Part shown: positions 47,559 through 61,691 of the stretch, piece by piece
Layout of the letters: each line of letters begins with the position of its first letter
Numbering within the stretch: the first letter of the stretch is position 1
Assembly (NCBI RefSeq): GCF_024228315.1
Contig: NZ_CP100454.1
Span: forward strand, 682,001 to 746,000
Direction of reading: 5' to 3'
DNA from: Halomarina pelagica
GTDB lineage: Archaea; Halobacteriota; Halobacteria; Halobacteriales; Haloarculaceae
Length of the DNA stretch: 64,000 bases
The notes under the pieces: model-generated
Told to the model about the DNA's origin: nothing
What the model saw: only the letters and a program-made list of their open reading frames with translations
Databases searched by the model: none
Program-made: the position numbers and the translations under genes

Positions 47559-47718
47559 CGAGGCGGTCCCCGATCGCGGCGAACGGTCCCGTGCGGCCGC
47601 CGAGCCGCCCGGTCGGACCGCCCGTTCCCGGTCGCCCCCCGAACGATCGCGAGGCGTGAGAGACCGCCGCCCTGTCATCCGCCCCCGCGCTTATCGTAGT
47701 CCGGACGGAAGGAACCGT

Positions 47719-48639
47719 ATGGAACTCCGCGAGCCGACCCCGGACGACGCGGACCGTGTGCGAGAGGTCGTGCGGAGCGCGATGACGACGTCCTACGCGC
47801 TCAGCCCGGAACAGATCGAGACGATCGTCGAGGCGCAGTTCGGCGACGATCGTCCGACGCGGGACTTCGAGGGCTCCGACGCGGCCGTCATCGTCGCGGA
47901 GAGCGAGGTGAACGGCGGTCCGAGCACGATCGCGGGCGTCGTCGTCGGCGAACTCGACGGGGACGAGGGCGAAGTCCGGTGGCTGTTCGTCGACCCGGAG
48001 CACCGCGGCGCGGGGATCGGCACGGAGCTGTTCGAGACGATGGTCGGGGCGCTGCGCGACCAGGGCGCAGAGCGGGTGCGGGCGAGCACGCTCGAGGCGA
48101 ACATGGAGGGCCACGGGTTCTTCGAGCGGTTCGAGTACGAGCGGCTCGGCGTCCGACAGGCCGAGTTCGGCGACGAGTCCCTCGAGGAGTACGTGTACGT
48201 CGAACCGTCGGCCGACGAGGAGACGGAAGCGGAAGCGGAAGCGGAGGCGGAAGCAGGGATAGACAGGAAGACGAAGGCGGAAGCGGACGGGGAGACGGGG
48301 ACGGCGACGGAAGCGGACGCCGATGGAGAGACGGACGCGGACGAAGCCGAAGCCGAAGTCGACCTCCCGGGGACCGAACGCCGCGACGGCGTCCCGACCG
48401 CGACGACCGACGACGGCCGGCAGGTGTACGTCGACCGCGACGACGAGCTATCGGGCGAGGAGGCACCGTTCTTCGCGGCGTACCTCGACGAGGAGTTCAC
48501 GGAGCGGTACGGCTACTACTGCGCGTACTGCGGCTCGCTCGACGTCACGGAGGACACGATGGGACGCGTCGAGTGCGACGAGTGCGGCAACACCCACGCG
48601 GCCCGCTCCGGCGAGGCGTACGACGACTCGTACCTCTGA
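47719..48639 (+). CDS. GNAT acetyltransferase fused to DUF5816 zinc-ribbon domain
   Basis: 306 residues. Residues 1-155 are a GNAT domain with the acetyl-CoA loop LFVDPEHRGAGIGTELFE and EANMEGHGFFERFEYERLG. A hinge of about 60 residues follows, made of EAEAEAEAE and Glu/Asp/Thr repeats, encoded by (GAAGCG) direct repeats. The C-terminal part, after PGTERRDGVPTATTDDG, is DUF5816 with YYCAYCGSL and RVECDECGNTHA, a zinc ribbon. The fusion suggests the ribbon recognises the substrate. The start is fixed by ATG 47719; the upstream frame is not GNAT-like. Confidence 0.86.
   Translation: MELREPTPDDADRVREVVRSAMTTSYALSPEQIETIVEAQFGDDRPTRDFEGSDAAVIVAESEVNGGPSTIAGVVVGELDGDEGEVRWLFVDPEHRGAGIGTELFETMVGALRDQGAERVRASTLEANMEGHGFFERFEYERLGVRQAEFGDESLEEYVYVEPSADEETEAEAEAEAEAGIDRKTKAEADGETGTATEADADGETDADEAEAEVDLPGTERRDGVPTATTDDGRQVYVDRDDELSGEEAPFFAAYLDEEFTERYGYYCAYCGSLDVTEDTMGRVECDECGNTHAARSGEAYDDSYL
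48226..48260. repeat. GAAGCG hexamer repeat inside the GNAT-DUF5816 gene
   Basis: Several tandem GAAGCG/GAGGCG units encode the Glu-Ala hinge. The length could vary between strains without changing the frame. Confidence 0.7.
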
Positions 48640-48661
48640 GTCGGCCGTTCGCGGCCCCTCG

Positions 48662-49600
48662 CTACTCCGGGGACGGCGTCGGCAGGTCCGGGAGGCCGGC
48701 CTCGATCTCGGCTCGCCGGCTCTCCAGCCACTCGGGCAGCACCAGCCGTTCGCCCAGTTCGTCGACGTCCTCGTCGACCGCGTATCCCGGCGACTCCGTG
48801 GCGAACTCGAAGAGCACGCCGCCGTGCTCGCGGACGTAGACCGACTGGAACCACTTCCGGTCGATCACCTCCGTCGGCCTGAGCCCCCGCTCGAACAGGG
48901 CGTCGCGCCACGCCGGCTGGTCGGCCGCCGTCGTCCGGAACGCCACGTGGTGGACGGTGCCCGCGCCGGGCTGGCCGCGGGGTGCCTGGGGATCTTCGAG
49001 GAGGTCCACGACGTACCCCAGGTCGCCCGCGGCCTCGTAGCGCCGCCGGTCGCGCTCCGCGTCCGTCTCCCGATACCCCATCGTCCGCAGGAGGTCCGCG
49101 GTCGGTCCGGCGCTCTCGAGCGAGAGCGTCACGCCGAAGAAGCCGCGGATGGCGTGCTCGTCCGGAACGGGACCGTCCGGCGGGTCGCCGTCGGGCGCGT
49201 CCGGGCGAGCCACCAGTTCCATCGGGATCCCGTCGGGGTCGCGGAAGGCGAGGGCGGTGTCGCCGAAGCGCTCGCGGGGATCGTCGGCGTCGACGCCGCG
49301 CTCCGCGAACCGATCCCGCCAGAAGTCGATCGATCTCTCGGGGATCAGGAACGCGACCTCGCTCACCTGCCCGGTGCCCACGCGGCCGGGGCGGGCGTTC
49401 GGGTAGGGGAAGAACGTCATGCTCGTGCCGGGGGTCCCGCGCCGGTCGCCGTAGAACAGGTGGTACACCGACACGTCGTCCTGGTTCACGCTCCGCTTGA
49501 CCAGGCGAAGCCCCAGCGTCCCCGTGTAGAATTCGAGGTTCCGTCCGGGGTCGCTCCCGACGGCCGTGACGTGGTGGATTCCGGGTACGTCTGCCGGCAT
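48662..49600 (-). CDS. Ring-cleaving dioxygenase / glyoxalase (VOC superfamily)
   Basis: 312 residues made of two vicinal-oxygen-chelate units. Unit 1 starts GIHHVTAVGSDPGRNLEFYTGTLGLRLVKR and unit 2 GTVHHVAFRTTAADQ. The expected metal ligands are His in HHVT, His in VHHVAF and Glu in GVLFEFATE. Such proteins (ring-cleaving dioxygenase, PcpA-like) open hydroxylated aromatic rings with Fe(II). ATG 49600 starts directly on unit 1; nine upstream codons are not family-like. The substrate is unknown. Confidence 0.87.
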   Translation of the reverse strand: MPADVPGIHHVTAVGSDPGRNLEFYTGTLGLRLVKRSVNQDDVSVYHLFYGDRRGTPGTSMTFFPYPNARPGRVGTGQVSEVAFLIPERSIDFWRDRFAERGVDADDPRERFGDTALAFRDPDGIPMELVARPDAPDGDPPDGPVPDEHAIRGFFGVTLSLESAGPTADLLRTMGYRETDAERDRRRYEAAGDLGYVVDLLEDPQAPRGQPGAGTVHHVAFRTTAADQPAWRDALFERGLRPTEVIDRKWFQSVYVREHGGVLFEFATESPGYAVDEDVDELGERLVLPEWLESRRAEIEAGLPDLPTPSPE

Positions 49601-49710
49601 GTGCGCCGGTAGGCGTTCGCACGGCATACGGCTGTTGCCTGTCTACCGACGGGCGACCGCCGGGGCCGAAGGGCGTCGGATCGGCGGAGCGCCCGGCGGT
49701 GTGGCCGTCG

Positions 49711-51093
49711 TCAGTCCTCGCCGGACTCGGTGAGGCTCCGGGCGTCGGCGGGCGTCCCGGCGGCCGGGGCGTCGAAGAGCGGGCTCTGCTCGCCGGGGGC
49801 GAACGTGTTGAGCAGCAGCGCCGTCAGCGCGGTCACGATGACCGGCTCCCCGAAGAAGGTCCGGGCGGCCCGCGGCAGTTCCTGGAGCGCTTCGGGTCGC
49901 GCGGCGACGCCGAGACCGAGGCCGAGGGCGACGGCGACGACGACCATGTTCCGGCGGTCGAGGTCGACGTGCAGGAAGAGCAGGCGCGCGCCGCTCGCGG
50001 CCACCATGCCGGCCATCAGCACGACCGCGCCGCCGAAGACGGCGCTCGGGATCGTCGCGACCGCCGCGCCCACCTTCGGGCTGAGTCCCAGCACGGTAAG
50101 GACGACGCCGGCGACGCCGACGACGTGGCGGCTCATCACGCCGGTGAAGTTGACGATGCCCACGTTCTGCGAGAACGACGTGACGGGGAACGCGCCGAAC
50201 GCCGCGCCGATCGAACTCAGGAGGCCGTCGGTGAACAGCCCGCCGCGGAACTCCTCACCGGTGGGGTTCCGTCCCTCGGCGGCCGTGACGCCCGACATGT
50301 CGCCGACGGTCTCCATCGCGGACACCAGAAACAGGAACGCGAACGTGACGACGGCGACCGGTTCGAACTCGAATCCGAACGCGCCCGGCCGCGGGACGGC
50401 GAACGGGGCGGCCGACGCCACCGGACCGAAGTCGACGAGGCCGAGCGCGACGGCGGCCACGTAGCCGACGCCGATGCCGGCGAGCACGCTCAGCAGTCTC
50501 GCGACGCCGGTCGTGAACAGGTTGAGGACGACCGCGACGGACAGGACCAGCAGGGCGAGGCCGATGTTGTGCACCGCGCCGTAGTCCGCCGCGCCGACGC
50601 CGCCGGCCGCGTAGTCGACGCCGACCGGGACGAGGTAGAGCCCGATCACGATCACGACCAGCCCCGTCACGAGCGGCGGGAAGAACGGCCGGATGCGGTC
50701 GAACTGCCAGCCGATCACCCCCTCGACGACGAACCCGGTGACGAGTATCGCGCCGAAGACCGCTCCGAGCCCGTAGTCGACGCCGATGCTCGTCGCCGCC
50801 CCGACGAACGTGAAGCTCGTCCCCATCACGATCGGGAGCCGCGCCCCGATCGGGCCGACGGTGTACGCCTGGACGACCGTCGCCAGCCCCGAGAACAGGA
50901 GCACCATCTGGACGACGTACGCCGTGTCCGCCGCGCCGAGGCCGACCGCGCCCGCGACGATGAACGCCACCGCGGTCGCCGGAACGATCATCACCGCGAC
51001 GTGCTGCACCCCGAGCAGGATCGACTTCGGCCACGGCGGCCGGTCGTCGAGTTCGTACTCGAGTTCGATCTCCCCGTCAGCGTCGGTCGACAT
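49711..51093 (-). CDS. NCS2 family uracil/xanthine permease
   Basis: 460 residues with about twelve to fourteen transmembrane helices. ILLGVQHVAVMIVPATAV is the NCS2 helix-1 motif with the conserved QH; SAMETVGDMSGVTAAEGR and TSFSQNVGIVNFTGVMSRHVV are the substrate-binding TM8 and TM10 regions. It takes up purine or pyrimidine bases with protons. The downstream hpt gene and the NUP-type gene elsewhere in the window point to purine salvage. ATG 51093. Confidence 0.92.
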   Translation of the reverse strand: MSTDADGEIELEYELDDRPPWPKSILLGVQHVAVMIVPATAVAFIVAGAVGLGAADTAYVVQMVLLFSGLATVVQAYTVGPIGARLPIVMGTSFTFVGAATSIGVDYGLGAVFGAILVTGFVVEGVIGWQFDRIRPFFPPLVTGLVVIVIGLYLVPVGVDYAAGGVGAADYGAVHNIGLALLVLSVAVVLNLFTTGVARLLSVLAGIGVGYVAAVALGLVDFGPVASAAPFAVPRPGAFGFEFEPVAVVTFAFLFLVSAMETVGDMSGVTAAEGRNPTGEEFRGGLFTDGLLSSIGAAFGAFPVTSFSQNVGIVNFTGVMSRHVVGVAGVVLTVLGLSPKVGAAVATIPSAVFGGAVVLMAGMVAASGARLLFLHVDLDRRNMVVVAVALGLGLGVAARPEALQELPRAARTFFGEPVIVTALTALLLNTFAPGEQSPLFDAPAAGTPADARSLTESGED

Positions 51094-51225
51094 GTATGGC
51101 GGTAGGTGCGATCCCCGACGGATAATCCTTCCGTGATCGAGCGCATATCTACCTCATCGAGGGGCGAATATGAGCACGTTCGTGTATTCTCCGTGAGGGA
51201 GGACGGAAGAGCGAGACGGAGAAAC

Positions 51226-51301
51226 GAGACGGAAGAGCGACGTGGGAGAGACGGAAGAGCGACGTGGGGGACAGAGGAACGAGACGGACGATCGACGTGG
51301 G
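51226..51301. repeat. Imperfect tandem repeat between hpt and the NCS2 gene
   Basis: GAGACGGAAGAGCGACGTGG recurs at 51226 and 51248 (22-base period) and as a diverged copy at 51281. It lies between the hpt stop (51337, minus strand) and the NCS2 start (51093, minus strand). It is non-coding in the reading frames of neighbours. A regulatory or slipped-repeat origin is possible. Confidence 0.6.
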
Positions 51302-51336
51302 CGCGGGGTCGGCGTCGGCGGTCGCCCGGGGGTCGA

Positions 51337-51882
51337 TCAGTGGATCGTGACCTCGCCGTCCTCGACGGTGACGTCGACGAGGCTCGTCGCCTCGTGGTCG
51401 GTGTCGTCGAGGGCCGACTCGCCCACCTTCCGGATCACGACCACGATGTCGACGATCTCCGCGCCGATGCCGTCGAGCGCGTCGCAGATGGCCGCGAGCG
51501 TCCCGCCGGTCGACAGCAGGTCGTCGACGATCAGCACGCGGTCGCCCGCCTCGACGTCGTTGATGTACATCTCCGACTCCGAGTAGCCGGTCGTCTGGTG
51601 GAGCGCCACCTCGCCGTCGAGGCCGTAGGATCGCTTGCGGATGACCACGAGCGGGACGTCCGTCTGGAGCGAGAGCGCCGTCGCGATGTGGATGCCCATC
51701 GCCTCCGGCGCGACGATCTTGTCGACGTCGAGGTCCGCCGCTCGCGTGACGCCGACGACCACCTCGCGCAACAGCTCGGGGTCGAGCATCGGCACGCCGT
51801 TGCTTATCGGGTGGACGAGGTACTCGTAGCCGTCCTTGTCGACGATCGGCGCGTCGTGCAACGACTCGTGGAGCCGGTTCAT
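51337..51882 (-). CDS. hpt: Hypoxanthine/guanine phosphoribosyltransferase family protein
   Basis: 181 residues of the archaeal PRTase group that resembles adenine PRTase. The PRPP loop is [18 protein letters not shown], the N-terminal hood starts [23 protein letters not shown], and [15 protein letters not shown] covers the flexible loop. It salvages purine bases to nucleotides. ATG 51882 (MNRLHESL) matches the family start; the upstream frame to 51948 is not conserved. It precedes the NCS2 permease gene on the same strand, so uptake and salvage are probably coordinated. Confidence 0.9.
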
Positions 51883-52063
51883 GCCGCTCGTTTTCGGAAA
51901 CAGGGGAAAAACGGTTCGTTCTCCGGCAGCGCGGTCGGGCGTCGCCACGCGCTCGCCGTCCCAACGAGGGGTAGACGAACCCGAAAGTTACCCCCGTGGG
52001 TCGGTAAGCGGTCCCCCGGCGCGAGGGGGCCCGGCGTCTCGCTGAACGGTGTGAAGCGAGGCT

Positions 52064-52086
52064 CGGGAGACGCCAGGCGTCTCCCG
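52064..52086. terminator. Perfect 11-bp inverted repeat after the zinc-finger gene
   Basis: CGGGAGACGCC, one base, GGCGTCTCCCG. It lies about 22 bases past the stop of the gene at 52108 (minus strand) and may act as a terminator or mRNA 3' hairpin. A second pair, CTCGCT...AGCGAG, is nested beside it at 52037-52060. No T-tract follows, so transcription termination is only a guess. Confidence 0.45.
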
Positions 52087-52107
52087 GCGTGAACGCCGGA
52101 GAGGACG

Positions 52108-52485
52108 TCAGAGGAACCGAGTTCGCACGGCCGTCACGGATCGCGTCCAGTCGTCCTCGAGAAGCGGGAGGGCGGCCGCTATATCGCGCCGATGCTCTCG
52201 CATCCAGTCTTCCTCCTCGTCCATCTCGAGTTCCCACTCCTCGAGCGATTCGATGCCGAAGTCCTCCGCCGAGTATCGATCCCCGTCGACGGTCACGGTC
52301 CCGTGCAGTTCGTCGCACTCGGCGCACTTCGTCGACGAGACGACGAAGTAGCGCTCGAGACGCTCCACGACCGACTCGTCGACGTCGGCGACCTCCTCCG
52401 CGACCACTCCGGCCGACTCACACCCGTAACAGAGCGTCGTCCGCCCTCCGAGCGGCTTTCCACAGTTCAGACACGTTCCACCCAT
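52108..52485 (-). CDS. Small protein with double CxxC zinc-binding motifs
   Basis: 125 residues. Cysteine pairs: CLNCGKP, CYGCESAG and CAECDE. The N-terminal pairs could form a zinc ribbon. The rest is helical and acidic (VDESVVERLERYFVV, ESLEEWELEMDEEEDWMREHRRDIAAAL). ATG 52485 sits just before GTCLNCG. The gene is divergent from the GH32 gene across a repeat-containing 250-base gap. The function is unknown. Confidence 0.75.
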   Translation of the reverse strand: MGGTCLNCGKPLGGRTTLCYGCESAGVVAEEVADVDESVVERLERYFVVSSTKCAECDELHGTVTVDGDRYSAEDFGIESLEEWELEMDEEEDWMREHRRDIAAALPLLEDDWTRSVTAVRTRFL

Positions 52486-52567
52486 ACCCCCGGTGGTGCC
52501 CCATCGGTCAAAAACGTTCACGCGGTCGGAGTCGAGGCGTCGAGGCGTCGAGCGGACCCGTCGCCGT

Positions 52568-52612
52568 CTTCATTTTCGTCCCCGTCTTCGTCTTCGTCTT
52601 CGTCTTCGTCGG
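52568..52612. repeat. CGTCTT hexanucleotide repeat in divergent promoter region
   Basis: CGTCTT CATTTT CGTCCC followed by four CGTCTT units. It lies between the start of the zinc-finger gene (52485, minus) and the GH32 gene (52738, plus). It is outside both coding frames. Variable copy number here could alter promoter spacing. Confidence 0.65.
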
Positions 52613-52737
52613 TGCCCCTGTCCGGTCGACGGCACGGGTGAGCCGTGCGAGGCGAGCGGATCGGAGCGCGATTTCGGTCGGTGCGCGTGCCAAAACTGAC
52701 TTGCCTCCGTCGCCCCGTGGTTTCGAACGAGCACTGC

Positions 52738-54891
52738 ATGTATGTCGGTTGTCTTCGTCGGGGCGAATCCACCGGAGAACAGCGCGTCGCGTACGACTGG
52801 TGTCGAGGGACGTTCCCCGACGCGGCGACGGTGTCCTTCGACGCCGTCGCGTCGGGCGACGTCGACCTCGGCGCGTTCGACGCGCTCTGGTGGCACCGGG
52901 ACGCCCCGCTCGACGACGCCGACTGGCTCGCCGACTGCGCGGAGGCGTTCCGGACCGCCGCCGACGAGGGGACCGGACTCCTCCTCTCGCTGCACGCCCT
53001 CTCCGCCGTCGAGGCGCTCGGTATCGACGCCGTCGCGCCCGACGCGACCGGGACCGACGACGTCGCGGAGCCGGCGGGACTGCTCTGCAAGACCGTCCAC
53101 GCCGACCACCCGCTGTTCGCGGGCTTCGAGACCCTCCGCGTCCACACGCGAGGGGCCGGCGTCGCCCAGCCGTTCGCCCGCTACGAGGTCGTGCTCCCCG
53201 AGCGGGGCGAGACGCTCGCCTGCGGCCTCCGCGGCGACGAGGAGTGCTACCCGCACAAGACCGTCGTCGGGTGGGACTGGGGGGCGGGCGCGGTCGTGGG
53301 CGCGGGCGACGCCCTCGCCTTCGCCGAGCCGACCGACGAGGCGTGCGACCGCGCCCGCCGCCGGTTCGTCGAGGACGCCCTCCGGACGCTCGCCGACCGC
53401 CCCGAGACCGTCACCGACCGTCCCGCGACCGGCGAGGAGCTGCGCGCCCTCCGCGCGGCCGTCGAGGACCACAACCGACCGCGGTATCACGTCACGTCCC
53501 CCGCGAACTGGCTGAACGACCCGAACGGGCTCGTCCACTGGAACGGCCGCTACCACGTCTTCTACCAGTACAACCCCGCCGGACCGTTCCACGGGACGAT
53601 CCACTGGGGGCACGCGGTGAGCGACGACCTCGTCCGCTGGGAGGACGAACCGGTCGCGCTCTCGCCGGATCCGGACGGACCGGACCGCGACGGCTGCTGG
53701 TCGGGGTGTACGGTCGTCCACGACGGGACCCCCACGTTCGTCTACACCGGCGGCCGCGGGGGGATTCAGCTCCCCTGTCTGGCGACGGCCGAGGACCCCG
53801 ACCTCCGCCGGTGGCGGAAGGACCCGGACAACCCGGTCATCGAGGAGGCACCGGTCGAACTCGACGTGCTGAACTCCGACCACTGGCACGCGGAGTTCCG
53901 CGATCACTGCGTCTGGAGGGACGGGGAGTTCTGGTACCAGCTCATCGGCTCCGGCATCACAGACGTGGGCGGGACCGTCCTCCGCTACCGCTCGGCCGAC
54001 CTCCGCGAGTGGACGTACCTCGGTCCCGTCCTGACCGGTACGTGGGAGGGTGCCGGCGCGATGTGGGAGTGCCCGGAACTGCTCGACCTGGGCGAGCGGG
54101 AACTGCTCCACGTCTCCAACTACGCTGACGTCTGGTACTTCCTCGGCGAACTCGACGACGGCCGCTTCCACGTCGACTCGCGGGGGAAGCTCGACTACGG
54201 CGACTTCTACGCGCCGCAGTCGCTGACCGACGAAACCGGTCGCGAACTCACCTTCGGGTGGCTCCCCGAGGCCCGCTCGGAGCGGGCGCAGTGGGACGCC
54301 GGCTGGTCGGGGGCCCTCTCGCTCCCCCGCGAACTGTCGCTCGCCGAGGACGGGGGGCTCCGCCAGCGTCCCGCGCCCGAGGTGACCGACCTGCGCCGCT
54401 CTCACGCCGCACTGACGGACCTCGTCGTCGACGGCGAGACGCCGCTCGACGCCTCCGGGACGGCGCTCGAACTCGCGCTGACGGTGCGCGTCGAGGACGC
54501 CGAGGCGTTCTCCCTCGTCGTCCGCGAGTCCGACGACGGGACGGAACGGACGCCCCTCCGCTACGCCGACGGCGAACTCGTGATCGATCGCTCGTCCGCG
54601 AGTCTCGACCCCGAGACGGCGAGCGACGACCAGCGGATGCCGGTCGGGACGCCCGACGGGACGCTCTCGCTGCGGGTGTTCGTCGACGGCTCCGTGATCG
54701 AGGCGTTCGCCAACGACCGGCGGTGTCTCACGAGTCGAGTCTACCCGACGCGAGCCGACAGCGACGGCGTCTCGCTCCGCGCCGAGGGCGGCGAGGCGGT
54801 CGTCGAGCGACTCGACGTCTGGGAGCTGGGCGACGCGTGGCCGGCGGCACCGAGCGCCGGGATGAGCGCGTCCTCGCCGACGCCGGAGTAG
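52738..54891 (+). CDS. GH32 fructan hydrolase/invertase with N-terminal GATase-like extension
   Basis: 717 residues. The first 240 residues form an extension ([39 protein letters not shown]) that looks like a class-I-glutamine-amidotransferase/ThuA-type fold. The GH32 part has NWLNDPNG (nucleophile Asp261), FRDH (Arg388-Asp389 stabiliser) and WECPELL (acid/base Glu444), followed by a beta-sandwich with [13 protein letters not shown]. It hydrolyses beta-fructosides such as sucrose, levan or inulin. No signal peptide is seen, so it is probably cytoplasmic. It faces the GH68 gene. Confidence 0.88.
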
Positions 54892-54990
54892 TCGAGCGGC
54901 GATCAGTCGACCCGTCGACCGATCTCTCGGTCGAGCCGTCGGGCCGTCGACCCGTCGGACGGTACGTCGCCCCGTCGGCGTCCCCGGCGG
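54892..54990. other. Short GC-rich convergent gap with GTCGACC repeats
   Basis: GTCGACCCGTCG recurs at about 54907 and 54945, with further GTCGA units. It lies between the convergent GH32 and GH68 genes and may form hairpins that insulate their 3' ends. Confidence 0.4.
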
Positions 54991-56304
54991 TCAGTACTCG
55001 CCCTCGCCGCCGAGCGGTCGTCGCCCCGCCAGCGGGTCGGCCGGCGGTAGCTCCTCGTCCTCCAGCGGCAGGTGACCGTGGTCGAGTTCGCCCCGGATGC
55101 GCGTCCGATCGCCCGCGAGTTCGAGCCGGAGCGTGGGGGCGAGCGTCCCGCCGAACTTCTCGCGCTGCTCGTCGGGGAGGAGGTGTCCCACCTCGTCGAG
55201 GTGGAGGCCGCCGAGGTCGTAGTAGTTGAAGAAGCTCGTCACCAGCAGTTCGTCGCGGTGGCCGTAGGCCAGCCAGGAGTACGCCTGGAACGGCGCGTTG
55301 TGCGGGTTCGCCACGACGAGCCCGGAGCCGTTGAGGGGGTCGTACTCGCCGCGGAGGGCGTCCGCGACGAACCCGTAGAGCCCGTCGAACCGCTCGAGCC
55401 CCGGCGCGAACGTGTGCTCGTGGCTCGACGTGAACAGGTAGTAGCGTCCGTCGCGGACGACGACGTGCGGGCGCTCGAGTTCCTGGTTGACGCAGGCCCC
55501 GTCGAGGATGGGCCGCCGCATCTCCCACTCCGTCGGGTCGCCGGCGTCGGAGACGGCGACGCCGACGCACCCGTTGAAGGCCCGCCGCCCGTCGTCGCCA
55601 CCGCACCCGCACTCGGGGACGGGCGTGTTCGCCTCGAACAGCAGGCACGTCTCGCCCGTCCCCGGGTCCTCGAAGAACCACGGGTCGCGGAAGGTGTAGA
55701 TGAGATCGCTCTCCCGGGCGGCCTGCTCCCGCGTCTCGTACCACTCGCCGTCGGCCGTCAGGAGCACCTCGTGGTCCCACGGGCCGGAGAGGCGCACGCC
55801 GTCGTCGTCGGTCGCGAGGTCGCCGCCGGTCGCGACGGCGATGCGCTGCTCGTAGGAGAGTTCGACCGCGTCGGCGCGACCGGCCGCGGTGTAGTAGAGG
55901 TAGAGTTCGTCGTCGGCCCGGTCGTACATCGCGGACCCGGCCCACTGCCGCGACCCGAGACTGCGCTCGGGGTCGAAGACCGGACCGCCGGTCGTCCACT
56001 CCCGCCCGTCCCGCGAGTAGAAGTAGCGGACGGTCGCCACGTCGTGGCGCTTGCCGGGGAGCATCTCGGCGGGCGCGGTCAGCGCGAAGACGACCCGCCA
56101 GCCGTCGACCTCGGCGAACGAGCCGTCGCGCTCCAGGAGCGGCCACGTGTCCCAGAGGTAGAGGTCGGAGTCGGTCGGTTCGTCCGGCGGGTAGACGATC
56201 GGAGCGGTCGTCTCCGCCGTCCGCCTGATGCGGGCGGCCTGCTCTCGCGTCCAGGTGGACGTCGCCCCCCACCGTCGATCCAGTTCGTACGTGCCGCTGG
56301 CCAT
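54991..56304 (-). CDS. GH68 fructosyltransferase (levansucrase/inulosucrase)
   Basis: 437 residues. The retaining GH68 triad is clear: nucleophile Asp52 in LYLWDTWPL, stabiliser Asp207 in FRDPWFFED, and acid/base Glu277 in NQELERPHVV. It transfers fructose from sucrose onto growing fructan. The sequence supports GH68 firmly, but not levan versus inulin linkage. The N-terminus MASGTYELDRRWG has no signal peptide, unusual for enzymes that normally act outside the cell. A TATA-like box 26 bases before ATG 56304 supports the start. Confidence 0.9.
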   Translation of the reverse strand: MASGTYELDRRWGATSTWTREQAARIRRTAETTAPIVYPPDEPTDSDLYLWDTWPLLERDGSFAEVDGWRVVFALTAPAEMLPGKRHDVATVRYFYSRDGREWTTGGPVFDPERSLGSRQWAGSAMYDRADDELYLYYTAAGRADAVELSYEQRIAVATGGDLATDDDGVRLSGPWDHEVLLTADGEWYETREQAARESDLIYTFRDPWFFEDPGTGETCLLFEANTPVPECGCGGDDGRRAFNGCVGVAVSDAGDPTEWEMRRPILDGACVNQELERPHVVVRDGRYYLFTSSHEHTFAPGLERFDGLYGFVADALRGEYDPLNGSGLVVANPHNAPFQAYSWLAYGHRDELLVTSFFNYYDLGGLHLDEVGHLLPDEQREKFGGTLAPTLRLELAGDRTRIRGELDHGHLPLEDEELPPADPLAGRRPLGGEGEY

Positions 56305-56327
56305 ACCGGGTAGAGACCCCTCCCCGG

Positions 56328-56332
56328 AATAA
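56328..56332 (-). promoter_or_regulatory. TATA-like box for the GH68 gene
   Basis: TTATT within GAGATTATTCC on the minus strand, about 26 bases before ATG 56304. It indicates a leaderless start and argues against an undetected N-terminal signal peptide upstream. Confidence 0.55.
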
Positions 56333-56513
56333 TCTCTCCCTTCTCGACCACATCTGCGAGTCCCCGTCGGCGTCGAACGCGCCCGAACCCACGGACCGCG
56401 TACCGGGTCCACGAATCGGGCACGTCGCGCGATCCGAGAACCGCGAAGTCGAGCGATCGCCCGACGGTCGTCCCGCGGCCGTCCCGCGGCCATTCGGCGG
56501 CCGTCCGACCGGG

Positions 56514-57287
56514 CTATCGGCGTGCCAGGCGACGCGGCCGTATCCGTGAGTCGCCGTCCAGACTGCGGATCCAGCGGGGCACGGACCCGGTGATCGCGAG
56601 CCGGTCGCTGTAGCGGACCCGGGGGTCTCCCTCCGGCGTCGGGAGGCCCCCCGCCTCGAACATCGTATCCTCGCGGACGGTCACGTCTGCGGGCTGGAGC
56701 GGCCACGGATCGTGGGCGATCTCGGCGTACAGGACCTTCTCCCCCGCCGGGTCGTACATCCGCCGACGCTCTGCCAACCAGTAGTCGAGCGTCCCCGGTT
56801 CGGCGCGGAAGACATCGCCGTCGGGTCGGTACGACGCGTCGAGTCGTGCGCGGACGCCCCGTCCGCCGTCGGACGGCGTACTCGCGCGCCTGCGGACGCT
56901 CCGAAAGTCCACGCGGTCGCCCCGCGTGCGAACGTCCACGTCGGCGCGGTAACACGGCAAGCGGGTCCCGCGCCCCACGACCGCCGGGACGATCGGGTTC
57001 GCGACGTCGACGCTGAAGAAGTACAACCCCGGGACGCCGTCGAAGCGGACGTACGTGCGGACGTTGAGTTCGGGGAAGCTAAACCGGGTGAACGAGGGGG
57101 AGAAGCGGAGACCGGCCCGGGACAGGACGAACGGGAGGAGGCTGACCCACGCGCGGCCGTCGTAGGTGTCGAGTTCGAGGGGGGCGGGGACGTGCGGGCG
57201 GAGCCGCTCCGGGTCGAACGGCCAGTGGACGAACAGGCCGTCCGTCCACGTCATCGAGAACGCGTGGGGCGCGACGGGCCGGTTCAC
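56514..57287 (-). CDS. DUF2071 (YqjF-like) protein
   Basis: 257 residues. Family features: MTWTDGLFVHWPFDPERLRPHVP near the start, RAWVSLLPFVLSRAGLR, ELNVRTYVRFDGVPGLYFFSVD, then YWLAERRRMYD. DUF2071 proteins adopt an acetoacetate-decarboxylase-like beta cone and have unknown activity. The start is a GTG at 57287; ATG at about codon 12 is an alternative. It is divergent from the small zinc-ribbon gene at 57390. Confidence 0.84.
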   Translation of the reverse strand: MNRPVAPHAFSMTWTDGLFVHWPFDPERLRPHVPAPLELDTYDGRAWVSLLPFVLSRAGLRFSPSFTRFSFPELNVRTYVRFDGVPGLYFFSVDVANPIVPAVVGRGTRLPCYRADVDVRTRGDRVDFRSVRRRASTPSDGGRGVRARLDASYRPDGDVFRAEPGTLDYWLAERRRMYDPAGEKVLYAEIAHDPWPLQPADVTVREDTMFEAGGLPTPEGDPRVRYSDRLAITGSVPRWIRSLDGDSRIRPRRLARR

Positions 57288-57389
57288 GCGCCCCGCTACG
57301 ACGCCGGCCGGTTTGTAGCTGGTGCCGGCGAGTTCCGCGCCGACGCGGACGTCCCGCCACCTTTTGCGGACCGGGCGCGTACCGGGCGC

Positions 57390-57632
57390 ATGGTCCGCTC
57401 TCGGACGGCCACCGCCGCGGTCGGCCTCGTCGCGAGCCTGCTCGTCAGCGCGCTCGTCTGGTGGTACTTCGACAGCTTCGTCTTCTTCCTGTTCGTCCCG
57501 TTCGTCCCCTTCCTGTTCCGACGGTCCGGACGGAAAGGGGAGGCGTCGCTCCGGCGGTGCCCGACCTGCGGGTTTCAGACGAGAGACGACGCCTACGAGT
57601 ATTGTCCCCGGGACGGAACCCGGCTGGAGTAG
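57390..57632 (+). CDS. Small membrane protein with C-terminal zinc ribbon
   Basis: 80 residues. Two hydrophobic segments (about 8-24 and 29-44, the second very rich in Phe) are followed by a cytoplasmic zinc ribbon, RRCPTCGFQTRD then YEYCPRDG. Many haloarchaeal genomes have such two-helix zinc-finger proteins of unknown role. ATG 57390 comes directly after the TTTTGCGG patch. Confidence 0.72.
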   Translation: MVRSRTATAAVGLVASLLVSALVWWYFDSFVFFLFVPFVPFLFRRSGRKGEASLRRCPTCGFQTRDDAYEYCPRDGTRLE

Positions 57633-57958
57633 ACGACCCCTCGCGGATCACGGGAACGCCCACCTTCCGCCGCCCGCGCTCCGACACCGCGACCGCCGTA
57701 ACCACCGCAACCCCACGATCGCCGCGACTGCCGCAACCGCCGCAACCGCTACAACTACCGCGATCGCCACGACCGTCACAGCTACCGCGACCGCCACCGT
57801 TCGGACACCGTCCCGATGGTGTCAATAAACGCTAACTTTTTCGGCGTCGTATCCGCGGGGGTGAACGGAACCGGTCGTCGGAACGAGGGGCGTCGAGGCC
57901 GAGCGGTCGTGGAGCGTCGGCGAGCGAGCGTCGGGTCGGCATCGGGCGTGATCGATCC
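57633..57958. repeat. 326-base gap with ACCGC-type low-complexity repeats
   Basis: From about 57681 to 57800 the sequence is a degenerate repeat of ACCGCNAC/CCGCAACCG units. A lone AT-rich island follows (TCAATAAACGCTAACTTTTT, 57822-57841). No plausible gene is seen; apparent frames encode Thr/Ala repeats. The AT patch may be a promoter, but it lies 118 bases before the GTG of the next gene. Confidence 0.5.
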
Positions 57959-59420: not shown

Positions 59421-59828
59421 ATGCCTGACACGGATGGAGACAATGATGACGAAGGATCCAGTTATGGCCCAATACGAACAGGAACTCTGAAAACCGAACT
59501 TAAGGCAGAGACCGCAGAGATGCATGACGGCGAAGAAATGTGGGTTGGCGACCCAGCAATGCAGTTCATGGAGAAACGGCTCATAGAAATCGCCCGATAT
59601 GTGTGGATGGAAGCAGCGGTTCAAACACACAGGGATGATAGACGCATTGTCCAGCCAAGCGAAATTGACGATGCATTCTCGAATCTTCTGGAGCCCCATA
59701 ATCTCTTAATGGAGGCAGCGAACGAAATGGAGCGATTGCGTTACGATTTCATAGATCTCGCGGAAGGATCACCGGCCATAGAGTTCAACGAGGAACGAGA
59801 GGAGCTAGAAGAACGGGAAGATGAGTAA
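59421..59828 (+). CDS. Histone-fold-like acidic protein, first gene of the island operon
   Basis: 135 residues. After a disordered acidic start, residues about 40-100 (GDPAMQFMEKRLIEIARYVW, then MEAAVQTHRDDRRIVQPSEI and DDAFSNLL) have the helix-long helix-helix layout of a histone fold. RRIVQPSEIDDAF is like the loop-2/alpha-3 segment of archaeal histones. A charged helical tail with EERE repeats follows. It lacks the basic DNA-contact pattern of true histones. The codon use is AT rich, unlike neighbours, which suggests horizontal transfer. It overlaps the next gene. Confidence 0.72.
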   Translation: MPDTDGDNDDEGSSYGPIRTGTLKTELKAETAEMHDGEEMWVGDPAMQFMEKRLIEIARYVWMEAAVQTHRDDRRIVQPSEIDDAFSNLLEPHNLLMEAANEMERLRYDFIDLAEGSPAIEFNEEREELEEREDE

Positions 59829-60513
59829 CCTGTTCTTCTTTCGGGATAGAGAAGGATATGATCCGGAGGACAAGTTTGACCGAATTAAAAGGCAATATTT
59901 CCAGATAGACAATGAAGTAATCTCGGACTACATCAAGGAGTACGAATTAGATACAGAGGACTTGGACGAACCTGGCAAGAACAAGCTGAGGCACTTCTTA
60001 GAAAGGAATCTGGATGACGACGTATTCGAGCAACTCCTTGACGAACTTTTTGAAAGCCAAGGTGAGGAAGGTGATTCATTCAATATCAAAGTATATGAGC
60101 TTGGAAATGGCGTCCACCAAACCAGCTTGCTTGATAAACTTGACTCGTTCAGCCAGCAAGATCTAATGAGCTCGGACGAAGGTGATGATTTCAGCTATGT
60201 TCTGGAGATTGCAGACTATGTCAACCGTGAAGAAGAAGGTGTGGTTGACATCTCCTTTCATGTTTCAGGGAAACGAGAACGTATGGATCCCTCTGATATC
60301 TGGTGGACCGAGGATGGGGAAAGAGTGTCAATCAGCGATGTGACTCAAGAACCGCCAGAGGAACTAAACAGAGATACGGACTACATTGTCGAAGCCCGAG
60401 TATACACCGATGCATGCCTGATAGCAATTTCTAATTCCGGAATAGACAAAACACTACAAGGAGAAATCCGAAGCGGAATACAGCGCTGGGGGTCCGAAGA
60501 TGGTAGCAGGTGA
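59821..60513 (+). CDS. Unrecognised acidic protein, second gene of the island operon
   Basis: 230 residues of no family I recognise. The N-terminal third is charged and helical (YDPEDKFDRIKRQYFQIDNEVISDYIKEYELD). The rest looks like strands (FSYVLEIADYVNREEEGVVDISFHVSG) with a closing YIVEARVYTDACLIAISNSG. There are no membrane segments or catalytic motifs. The ATG overlaps the histone-fold gene by eight bases, and the gene overlaps the third by 14. The AT-rich codon use matches its operon partners, not the chromosome. Confidence 0.7.
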   Translation: MSNLFFFRDREGYDPEDKFDRIKRQYFQIDNEVISDYIKEYELDTEDLDEPGKNKLRHFLERNLDDDVFEQLLDELFESQGEEGDSFNIKVYELGNGVHQTSLLDKLDSFSQQDLMSSDEGDDFSYVLEIADYVNREEEGVVDISFHVSGKRERMDPSDIWWTEDGERVSISDVTQEPPEELNRDTDYIVEARVYTDACLIAISNSGIDKTLQGEIRSGIQRWGSEDGSR

Positions 60514-60806: not shown

Positions 60807-61691
60807 ATGATTCCGCTAGATGTGTTTGGGTCGGAATCGGTCGCAGCGGACCTGTTGGCGCAGGTTCGCTGGCGTGACGGTGTTACCTGTCCTCGCTGCC
60901 GTTCTGACCGAACGGTCAGAAACGGCAGCTACAGAGAGTTTCAGCGGTATCTCTGTAAGAATTGTGACCGCACGTTCAACGACAAGACGGGCACAATCTT
61001 TGCTCACTCGAAGATCGCGCTCCGCCGGTGGTTGTTCTCGATCTACGCGTTTCTCCGGTTTAACACCAGTCTCCGCCAACTACAGTGCGAAATCGAGGTA
61101 ACACACAAGACGATGCACCGGCGCATCGAGCGCTTCGCCAGAGCGCTCGATGCGCCTTCCCTCGATCTCGTTGGTCCGGTTGAAATCGACGAAGTGTACG
61201 TCAACGCGGGGAAGAAAGGCCGCGAGCGCGACCAGGAGTCGCGCTCGCGTGGCCTGTCCACGCGCGGGCGAGGTTCGTACGATGGCGACAAGCCACCCGT
61301 GTTCATAATCGCTGATCGCGGGACCGGACAGCGGTACGTGATTCCAGCGAAAGCCGCCGACGAATCGACGATTCGACTCCTCCTTGCTGACCGCAAAGAG
61401 GAGTCGCTCACGGTCTATACCGACGGCTTTCGAGCGTACGAACCGCTCGAAGACGACGACGCATTCGACCGCGAATACGTCGTCCACGGCGACGGCGAAT
61501 ACGCCGATGAGGAAGTTCACGTCAACACCTGCGAGAGCCACGCGTCGCTGACGCGACGGTGGCTCTCGCCCCATCGAGGCGTCTCGAAAGACAAGTTGAC
61601 GCAGTATCTCAGAGCGTTCCAACTACGTCGGGAACTGTTTCGGAAACCCGGTCGAGACGCTCTCAAACACGCTGTTCGAGCGACGCTGTGA
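60807..61691 (+). CDS. IS1595-family transposase (ISH4 group)
   Basis: 294 residues. The N-terminal zinc ribbon VTCPRCRSDRTVRNGSYREF plus YLCKNCDRTF is followed by a helical DNA-binding region. The ISXO2-like DDE core comes next: GPVEIDEVYVNAGKKG, PVFIIADRGTGQRYVIPA, LTVYTDGFRAYEPL and the final VNTCESHASLTRRWLSPHRGVSKDKL. The gene looks intact and has ordinary haloarchaeal GC content. It sits between the two inverted repeats. ATG 60807 follows the hairpin. Confidence 0.9.
   Translation: MIPLDVFGSESVAADLLAQVRWRDGVTCPRCRSDRTVRNGSYREFQRYLCKNCDRTFNDKTGTIFAHSKIALRRWLFSIYAFLRFNTSLRQLQCEIEVTHKTMHRRIERFARALDAPSLDLVGPVEIDEVYVNAGKKGRERDQESRSRGLSTRGRGSYDGDKPPVFIIADRGTGQRYVIPAKAADESTIRLLLADRKEESLTVYTDGFRAYEPLEDDDAFDREYVVHGDGEYADEEVHVNTCESHASLTRRWLSPHRGVSKDKLTQYLRAFQLRRELFRKPGRDALKHAVRATL

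Follow-up and report, generated by a model that had tools for sequence, protein, structure and literature searches.

Inulosucrase activity has been demonstrated in an archaeon, Halomicrobium sp. IBSBa, and the residues that define the inulosucrase subfamily have been given as HxHT, R87/H88, A121, Y337, S338 and D365; for the enzyme itself, HmcIsc, SignalP found no signal peptide and PRED-TAT predicted one (PMC8066391). The joint presence of GH32 and GH68 has been noted in a natronoarchaeon that grows on levan (PMC9726719). On the side of fructan binding, the domain of a Bacteroides levan surface glycan-binding protein (SGBP) was found to bind levan, and its similarity to ThuA was reported (PMC7618045). 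A DUF4960 clone was likewise observed to bind levan and, more weakly, inulin, in a work that also mentions a small number of DUF4960 sequences that have GH32 domains (PMC10076258). We have analysed a stretch of 64,000 nucleotides from Halomarina pelagica (contig NZ_CP100454.1, positions 682,001 to 746,000; hereafter the window), in which a GH68 fructosyltransferase gene lies beside a GH32 beta-fructosidase gene (Table 1).

Table 1. Features of the GH68-GH32 locus, in window coordinates.
Feature	Position	Strand	Basis or remark
Phosphoribosyltransferase (Hpt-like), left flank	51337..51948	-	nearest relative 94% identical
Segment absent from the orthologous site in the nearest same-genus genome (G420)	51926..56507		
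Small zinc-ribbon-like protein gene, in variable segment, outside conserved cassette	52108..52521	-	no Pfam match
Two-gene cassette	52722..56298		DNA 82% identical to that of Halospeciosus flavus (L065); flanks without homology
GH32 beta-fructosidase gene, 717 aa, N-terminal DUF4960-like domain	52738..54891	+	Pfam PF00251/PF08244/PF16324; triad D261/D389/E444
GH32 residues 1-250, DUF4960/ThuA-like domain, probable non-catalytic fructan-binding module	52738..53487	+	PF16324; fold match
GH32 residues 251-545, five-bladed propeller catalytic domain	53488..54372	+	PF00251
GH32 RDH motif (R388-D389-H390) replacing the usual RDP	53899..53907	+	
GH32 residues 548-696, C-terminal beta-sandwich	54379..54825	+	PF08244
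GH68 fructosyltransferase gene (437 aa), of predicted inulosucrase type, without signal peptide	54991..56304	-	PF02435; PDB match 7bj4; triad D52/D207/E277
GH68 residues 295-298, HEHT (HxHT motif of haloarchaeal inulosucrases)	55411..55422	-	motif defined in PMC8066391
DUF2071 protein, right flank	56514..57287	-	nearest relative 87% identical

The two genes run towards each other, and 99 bp separate their stop codons. A first-pass annotation of the window had described convergent GH68 and GH32 neighbours, each with a full catalytic triad, and this is borne out by the coordinates, the strands and all six residues. The window genes that flank the pair are purine-related and unknown, and no transporter adjoins it. 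To the right of the pair lies an IS1595-type transposase gene (60807-61691); two ORFs adjoining the latter (59421-60513) have no Pfam match.

The GH68 protein is matched by PF02435 with an E value of 5e-79 over positions 7-414 of the 424 of the profile, that is, over the whole propeller domain. Counted from the ATG at 56304, the catalytic residues are D52 (WDTW), D207 (FRDP) and E277 (ELER), and the triad is invariant across 69 haloarchaeal and 23 bacilli sequences. An upstream extension of the protein to a 654-residue ORF was rejected, since the homologs begin about 50 residues before the nucleophile. The best PDB match, 7bj4, scores 606 bits, and the next about 202 bits. The PDB name of 7bj4 is levansucrase; we take it to be the inulosucrase of Halalkalicoccus jeotgali. 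The inulosucrase-subfamily residues are found in the window GH68 as R86, H87, E275, E277, H295, H297, T298, Y342, S343 and D370, all nearly invariant in haloarchaea; the equivalent of A121 is present too, and the equivalence to D365 was set by offset, without a shared alignment. The enzyme joins the haloarchaeal inulosucrases already described as a new member of their group and, because it holds the residues defined for that subfamily (PMC8066391), its product is predicted to be beta-2,1 linked (inulin). In a maximum-likelihood tree the archaeal GH68s form one group apart from those of bacilli, by which the published view of bacilli as donors is neither proven nor excluded.

The GH32 protein is matched by PF00251 (E = 2.7e-72) and PF08244 (E = 1e-27). 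Its catalytic residues, counted from the ATG at 52738, are D261 (WLNDPNG), D389 (FRDH) and E444 (WECP). A frameshift at the start of the gene had been suspected from an ORF in another frame; this was rejected because the Halospeciosus homolog agrees with both the start and the frame used. The proline of the RDP motif is replaced by histidine, and FRDH occurs in 52 of 52 pair-carrying haloarchaeal GH32s, as against FRDP in seven of seven bacilli GH32s and in two haloarchaeal GH32s of other architecture. A model of the full-length protein has a pLDDT of 91 and a pTM of 0.90.

The first 250 residues form a separate domain, which the first-pass annotation had missed. PF16324 (DUF4960) matches it at 2.8e-9, above the cut-off, and was detected in 33 of 36 haloarchaeal relatives of the GH32 (E 0.01). 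The domain model, with a pLDDT of 91, has a ThuA/class I amidotransferase-like fold. Its top fold match in the PDB is 8aa2_G (E 2.3e-13, TMq 0.70), which is the levan SGBP of the Bacteroides utilisome; the ThuA-like 1t0b comes next. By this analogy the haloarchaeal domain is a probable fructan-binding module. A WWH motif is shared; the SGBP binds through two tryptophans (PMC7618045), and these could not be mapped onto the haloarchaeal domain.

Such pairs are common. Among 391 Halobacteria species sampled, GH68 occurs in 154, GH32 in 160, both together in 149 and neither in 226, so that 149 of the 154 genomes with GH68 also carry GH32 (Fisher p = 6e-87, with relatedness ignored). The idea that few archaeal cases exist therefore does not hold: about 40% of the sampled species carry the pair, and archaeal inulosucrases had already been published (PMC8066391). 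The downstream sequence was long enough for 66 haloarchaeal loci to be assessed, and in 51 of these GH32 lies downstream of GH68 (locus L071 also has the pair and was missed by the cut-off). The arrangement is convergent in 51 of 51, a repetition which argues that it is not due to chance. The gap between the two genes has a median of 31 bp and is at most 148 bp in 42 loci, and some pairs overlap by a few bases.

We also sought a conserved operon with a transporter across the loci, and only the GH68-GH32 pair itself is widely conserved. ABC importers are found near the pair only in some genomes of the Halorubrum, Halobellus and Halohasta type. In Halohasta a TrmB regulator and an ABC sugar importer adjoin GH68 (L117:1220-7034), with GH32 not in reach. 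In Haloarcula salina a gene for salactin, an archaeal actin-like protein, lies a few kilobases from the pair (L087:13802-14887), and ORFs homologous to it occur in three other Haloarcula-type loci.

As a two-gene cassette, the GH68-GH32 pair is mobile among haloarchaea. The first-pass annotation had suggested phylogenies of both proteins as a check on joint transfer, and for this locus such transfer follows from the two GH trees set against rpoB, together with homology that is limited to the cassette. Both GH trees join the window pair with the pair of Halospeciosus flavus, a member of another family, as sisters with a support of 1.0, and DNA identity between the two genomes is essentially absent beyond the cassette edges. 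By rpoB the window genome is nearest to Haloarculaceae and a clade of the window genome with Halospeciosus is rejected with an AU p of 0.026, a modest value for a clade that was named after the GH trees had been seen. Over 24 taxa, distances in the GH68 tree and those in the GH32 tree have a correlation of 0.84; after removal of the rpoB distance the partial r is 0.67, a value reached in none of 2000 permutations. Directly upstream of the Halospeciosus pair is a gene for a clan GH-J protein that matches the GH32, GH43 and GH68 profiles (L065:6876-7892).

Within the genus, a complete GH68, or a GH32 of any kind, occurs in one of eight genomes, that of the window itself. A same-genus relative (L201) has a weakly GH68-like clan GH-J protein, a weak match of 37%. 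In G420 the segment given in Table 1, which includes the small zinc-ribbon-like gene besides the pair, is replaced at the orthologous site by about 1.03 kb that carries an alpha/beta hydrolase; conservation of the flanks (47614-51925 and 56508-57638) is 88-90%. The site is variable, and G420 does not necessarily represent the ancestral state. Repeats sought at the cassette edges gave nothing convincing against the GC-rich background.

What might the pair do? In the leading mechanism, which we consider fairly probable, it is a horizontally mobile module for the cytoplasmic synthesis of inulin or fructo-oligosaccharides from sucrose and for their recovery. Sucrose imported into the cytoplasm would be the substrate of both enzymes. 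GH68 would take fructose from sucrose and add it to another sucrose or to a growing chain, giving inulin-type fructo-oligosaccharides or polymer, and would also hydrolyse some sucrose. GH32 would hold the chain via its DUF4960/ThuA-like domain and trim fructose off fructan and sucrose, and the freed fructose would be phosphorylated by a ketohexokinase encoded on another contig. Protection from harm by intracellular fructan may be a further reason why the cell needs the GH32; levansucrase is a conditionally lethal enzyme in Escherichia coli on sucrose (PMC12384325). We further propose, more tentatively and as a possible history, that a secreted bacterial fructosyltransferase was made cytoplasmic by loss of its signal peptide and coupled to a GH32-fructan-binding fusion, and that the resulting intracellular store-and-release cycle is spreading among haloarchaea as the two-gene cassette. 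The first-pass annotation had likewise seen in the pair the synthesis and breakdown of fructan, of a kind known from bacteria, and our results support this. They lend none to an osmolyte role, which it had also offered; polymers serve poorly as osmolytes, and the osmolyte of haloarchaea is generally KCl.

The wider genome offers some context. Contig 3 carries a second DUF4960-GH32 beside a fusion of TrmB and ketohexokinase and a complete ABC sugar importer, a grouping that supports cytoplasmic handling of sucrose or fructosides. The fusion protein has 740 residues and joins a TrmB-type sugar regulator to an enzyme of its own pathway, ketohexokinase (Khk); its gene (L173:6682-8904) is divergent from those of the second GH32 and the importer. 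A haloarchaeal ketohexokinase has been found to act on fructose (PMC11519228).

The N-terminus of the window GH68 (MASGTYELDRRWG...) has a maximum 12-residue hydropathy of about 0.05 and shows no Sec or Tat signal by our own hydropathy test, a test other than SignalP that looks for a 12-residue segment with a hydropathy of at least 1.5. The nearest start codon lies 42-68 residues before the nucleophile in the 69 haloarchaeal GH68s, and a hydrophobic N-terminal segment is seen in none of them from this start and in one from the farthest start (90-residue limit). Among homologs from halophilic bacilli, a Sec-type segment is present in 23 of 23 at the farthest, permissive start and in 19 of 23 at the nearest. 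GH32, which begins directly with its DUF4960 fold, has no recognisable signal peptide either. Because such a signal is recognisable in neither protein of the window pair, we infer that both enzymes most likely act in the cytoplasm, the GH68 having lost its signal. Alternatively, the pair could form an extracellular exopolysaccharide module: GH68 would be exported by a signal-independent or unrecognised route, much as certain levansucrases of Gram-negative bacteria leave the cell with no signal cleaved off, and make inulin outside, as proposed for Halomicrobium sp. IBSBa, with GH32 degrading the inulin or handling imported oligosaccharides. A cysteine pair, suggestive of a disulphide, is conserved in 37 of the 69 haloarchaeal GH68s, that of the window included, and fits an exported protein better than a cytoplasmic one. 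Together with the fructan in the medium of sucrose-grown Halomicrobium sp. IBSBa, the PRED-TAT prediction for its GH68 and the extracellular assignment made there (PMC8066391), it counts against a cytoplasmic GH68. Export is nevertheless unlikely in our judgement, given that a hydrophobic or Tat-like N-terminus at the nearest start codon is absent from all 69 sequences, that GH32 shares this lack, and that in 19 of the 69 an in-frame stop at most 60 residues upstream of the nucleophile leaves no room for a signal.

A simpler role would be pure sucrose catabolism, with GH68 mainly a sucrose hydrolase in vivo, GH32 an invertase and little fructan formed. Sucrose hydrolysis is indeed common among GH68 enzymes, the GH32 has a sucrose-6-phosphate hydrolase-like similarity (below the curated cut-off) and its sister GH32 sits in the sugar-import cluster. 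We hold this role to be improbable, since the GH68 subfamily residues match those of an enzyme with proven inulin synthesis (PMC8066391), the GH32 keeps a domain of the fructan-binding type, and two redundant invertases would not need to be strictly paired. The preferred reading, a cytoplasmic cycle of synthesis and recovery, has points against it as well. No transporter adjoins the pair, and the genome has no clear sucrose-synthesis gene, only a weak partial match to an S6PP domain. In addition, the preference of the Bacteroides SGBP for levan over inulin counts against an inulin module with DUF4960 binding.

The synthesis of fructan by microbes is usually regarded as an extracellular process. 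With enzymes that lack an export signal and are tightly paired with a degrading enzyme, a widespread archaeal clade opens intracellular fructan metabolism to direct tests. The results also correct the idea that fructan genes are rare in archaea, and the fused DUF4960-GH32 provides a natural test case for the domain as a fructan-binding module outside Bacteroidota. Archaeal inulosucrases were already known; what is new is the pair as a signal-less, convergent and mobile unit with a DUF4960-GH32 partner.

The closest described enzymes, HmcIsc (PMC8066391) and 7bj4, resemble the window GH68 in family, triad, the HxHT motif and the R, H, A and D subfamily residues, and also in size, all three having 434-437 residues with the nucleophile at residue 52-53 (HmcIsc, 434 residues, D53). 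What our analysis adds is the paired GH32 with its fused DUF4960 domain and the joint mobility, and we read the location as cytoplasmic whereas there it was taken to be extracellular. In the levan utilisome of Bacteroides thetaiotaomicron a DUF4960/ThuA-like domain likewise works with a GH32 (PMC7618045). There, however, BT1760 (GH32) and BT1761 (the SGBP with DUF4960) are two levan-specific surface lipoproteins, whereas here a single GH32 without a signal peptide carries the domain at its N-terminus and is partnered by GH68. The closest bacterial GH68 relatives found, with up to 48% identity, are those of halophilic bacilli (Halobacillus and Pseudalkalibacillus; L134-L144), which have two tandem GH68s that belong to different clades and each bear a Sec-type signal peptide; in the GH32s near them this N-terminal domain is missing or the architecture differs, and FRDP stands where FRDH is found here. 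In Zymomonas mobilis, where a levansucrase and a GH32 link fructan synthesis and breakdown in a similar way (mentioned in PMC8066391), the two genes form a co-directional operon, in contrast to the convergent pair of the haloarchaea.
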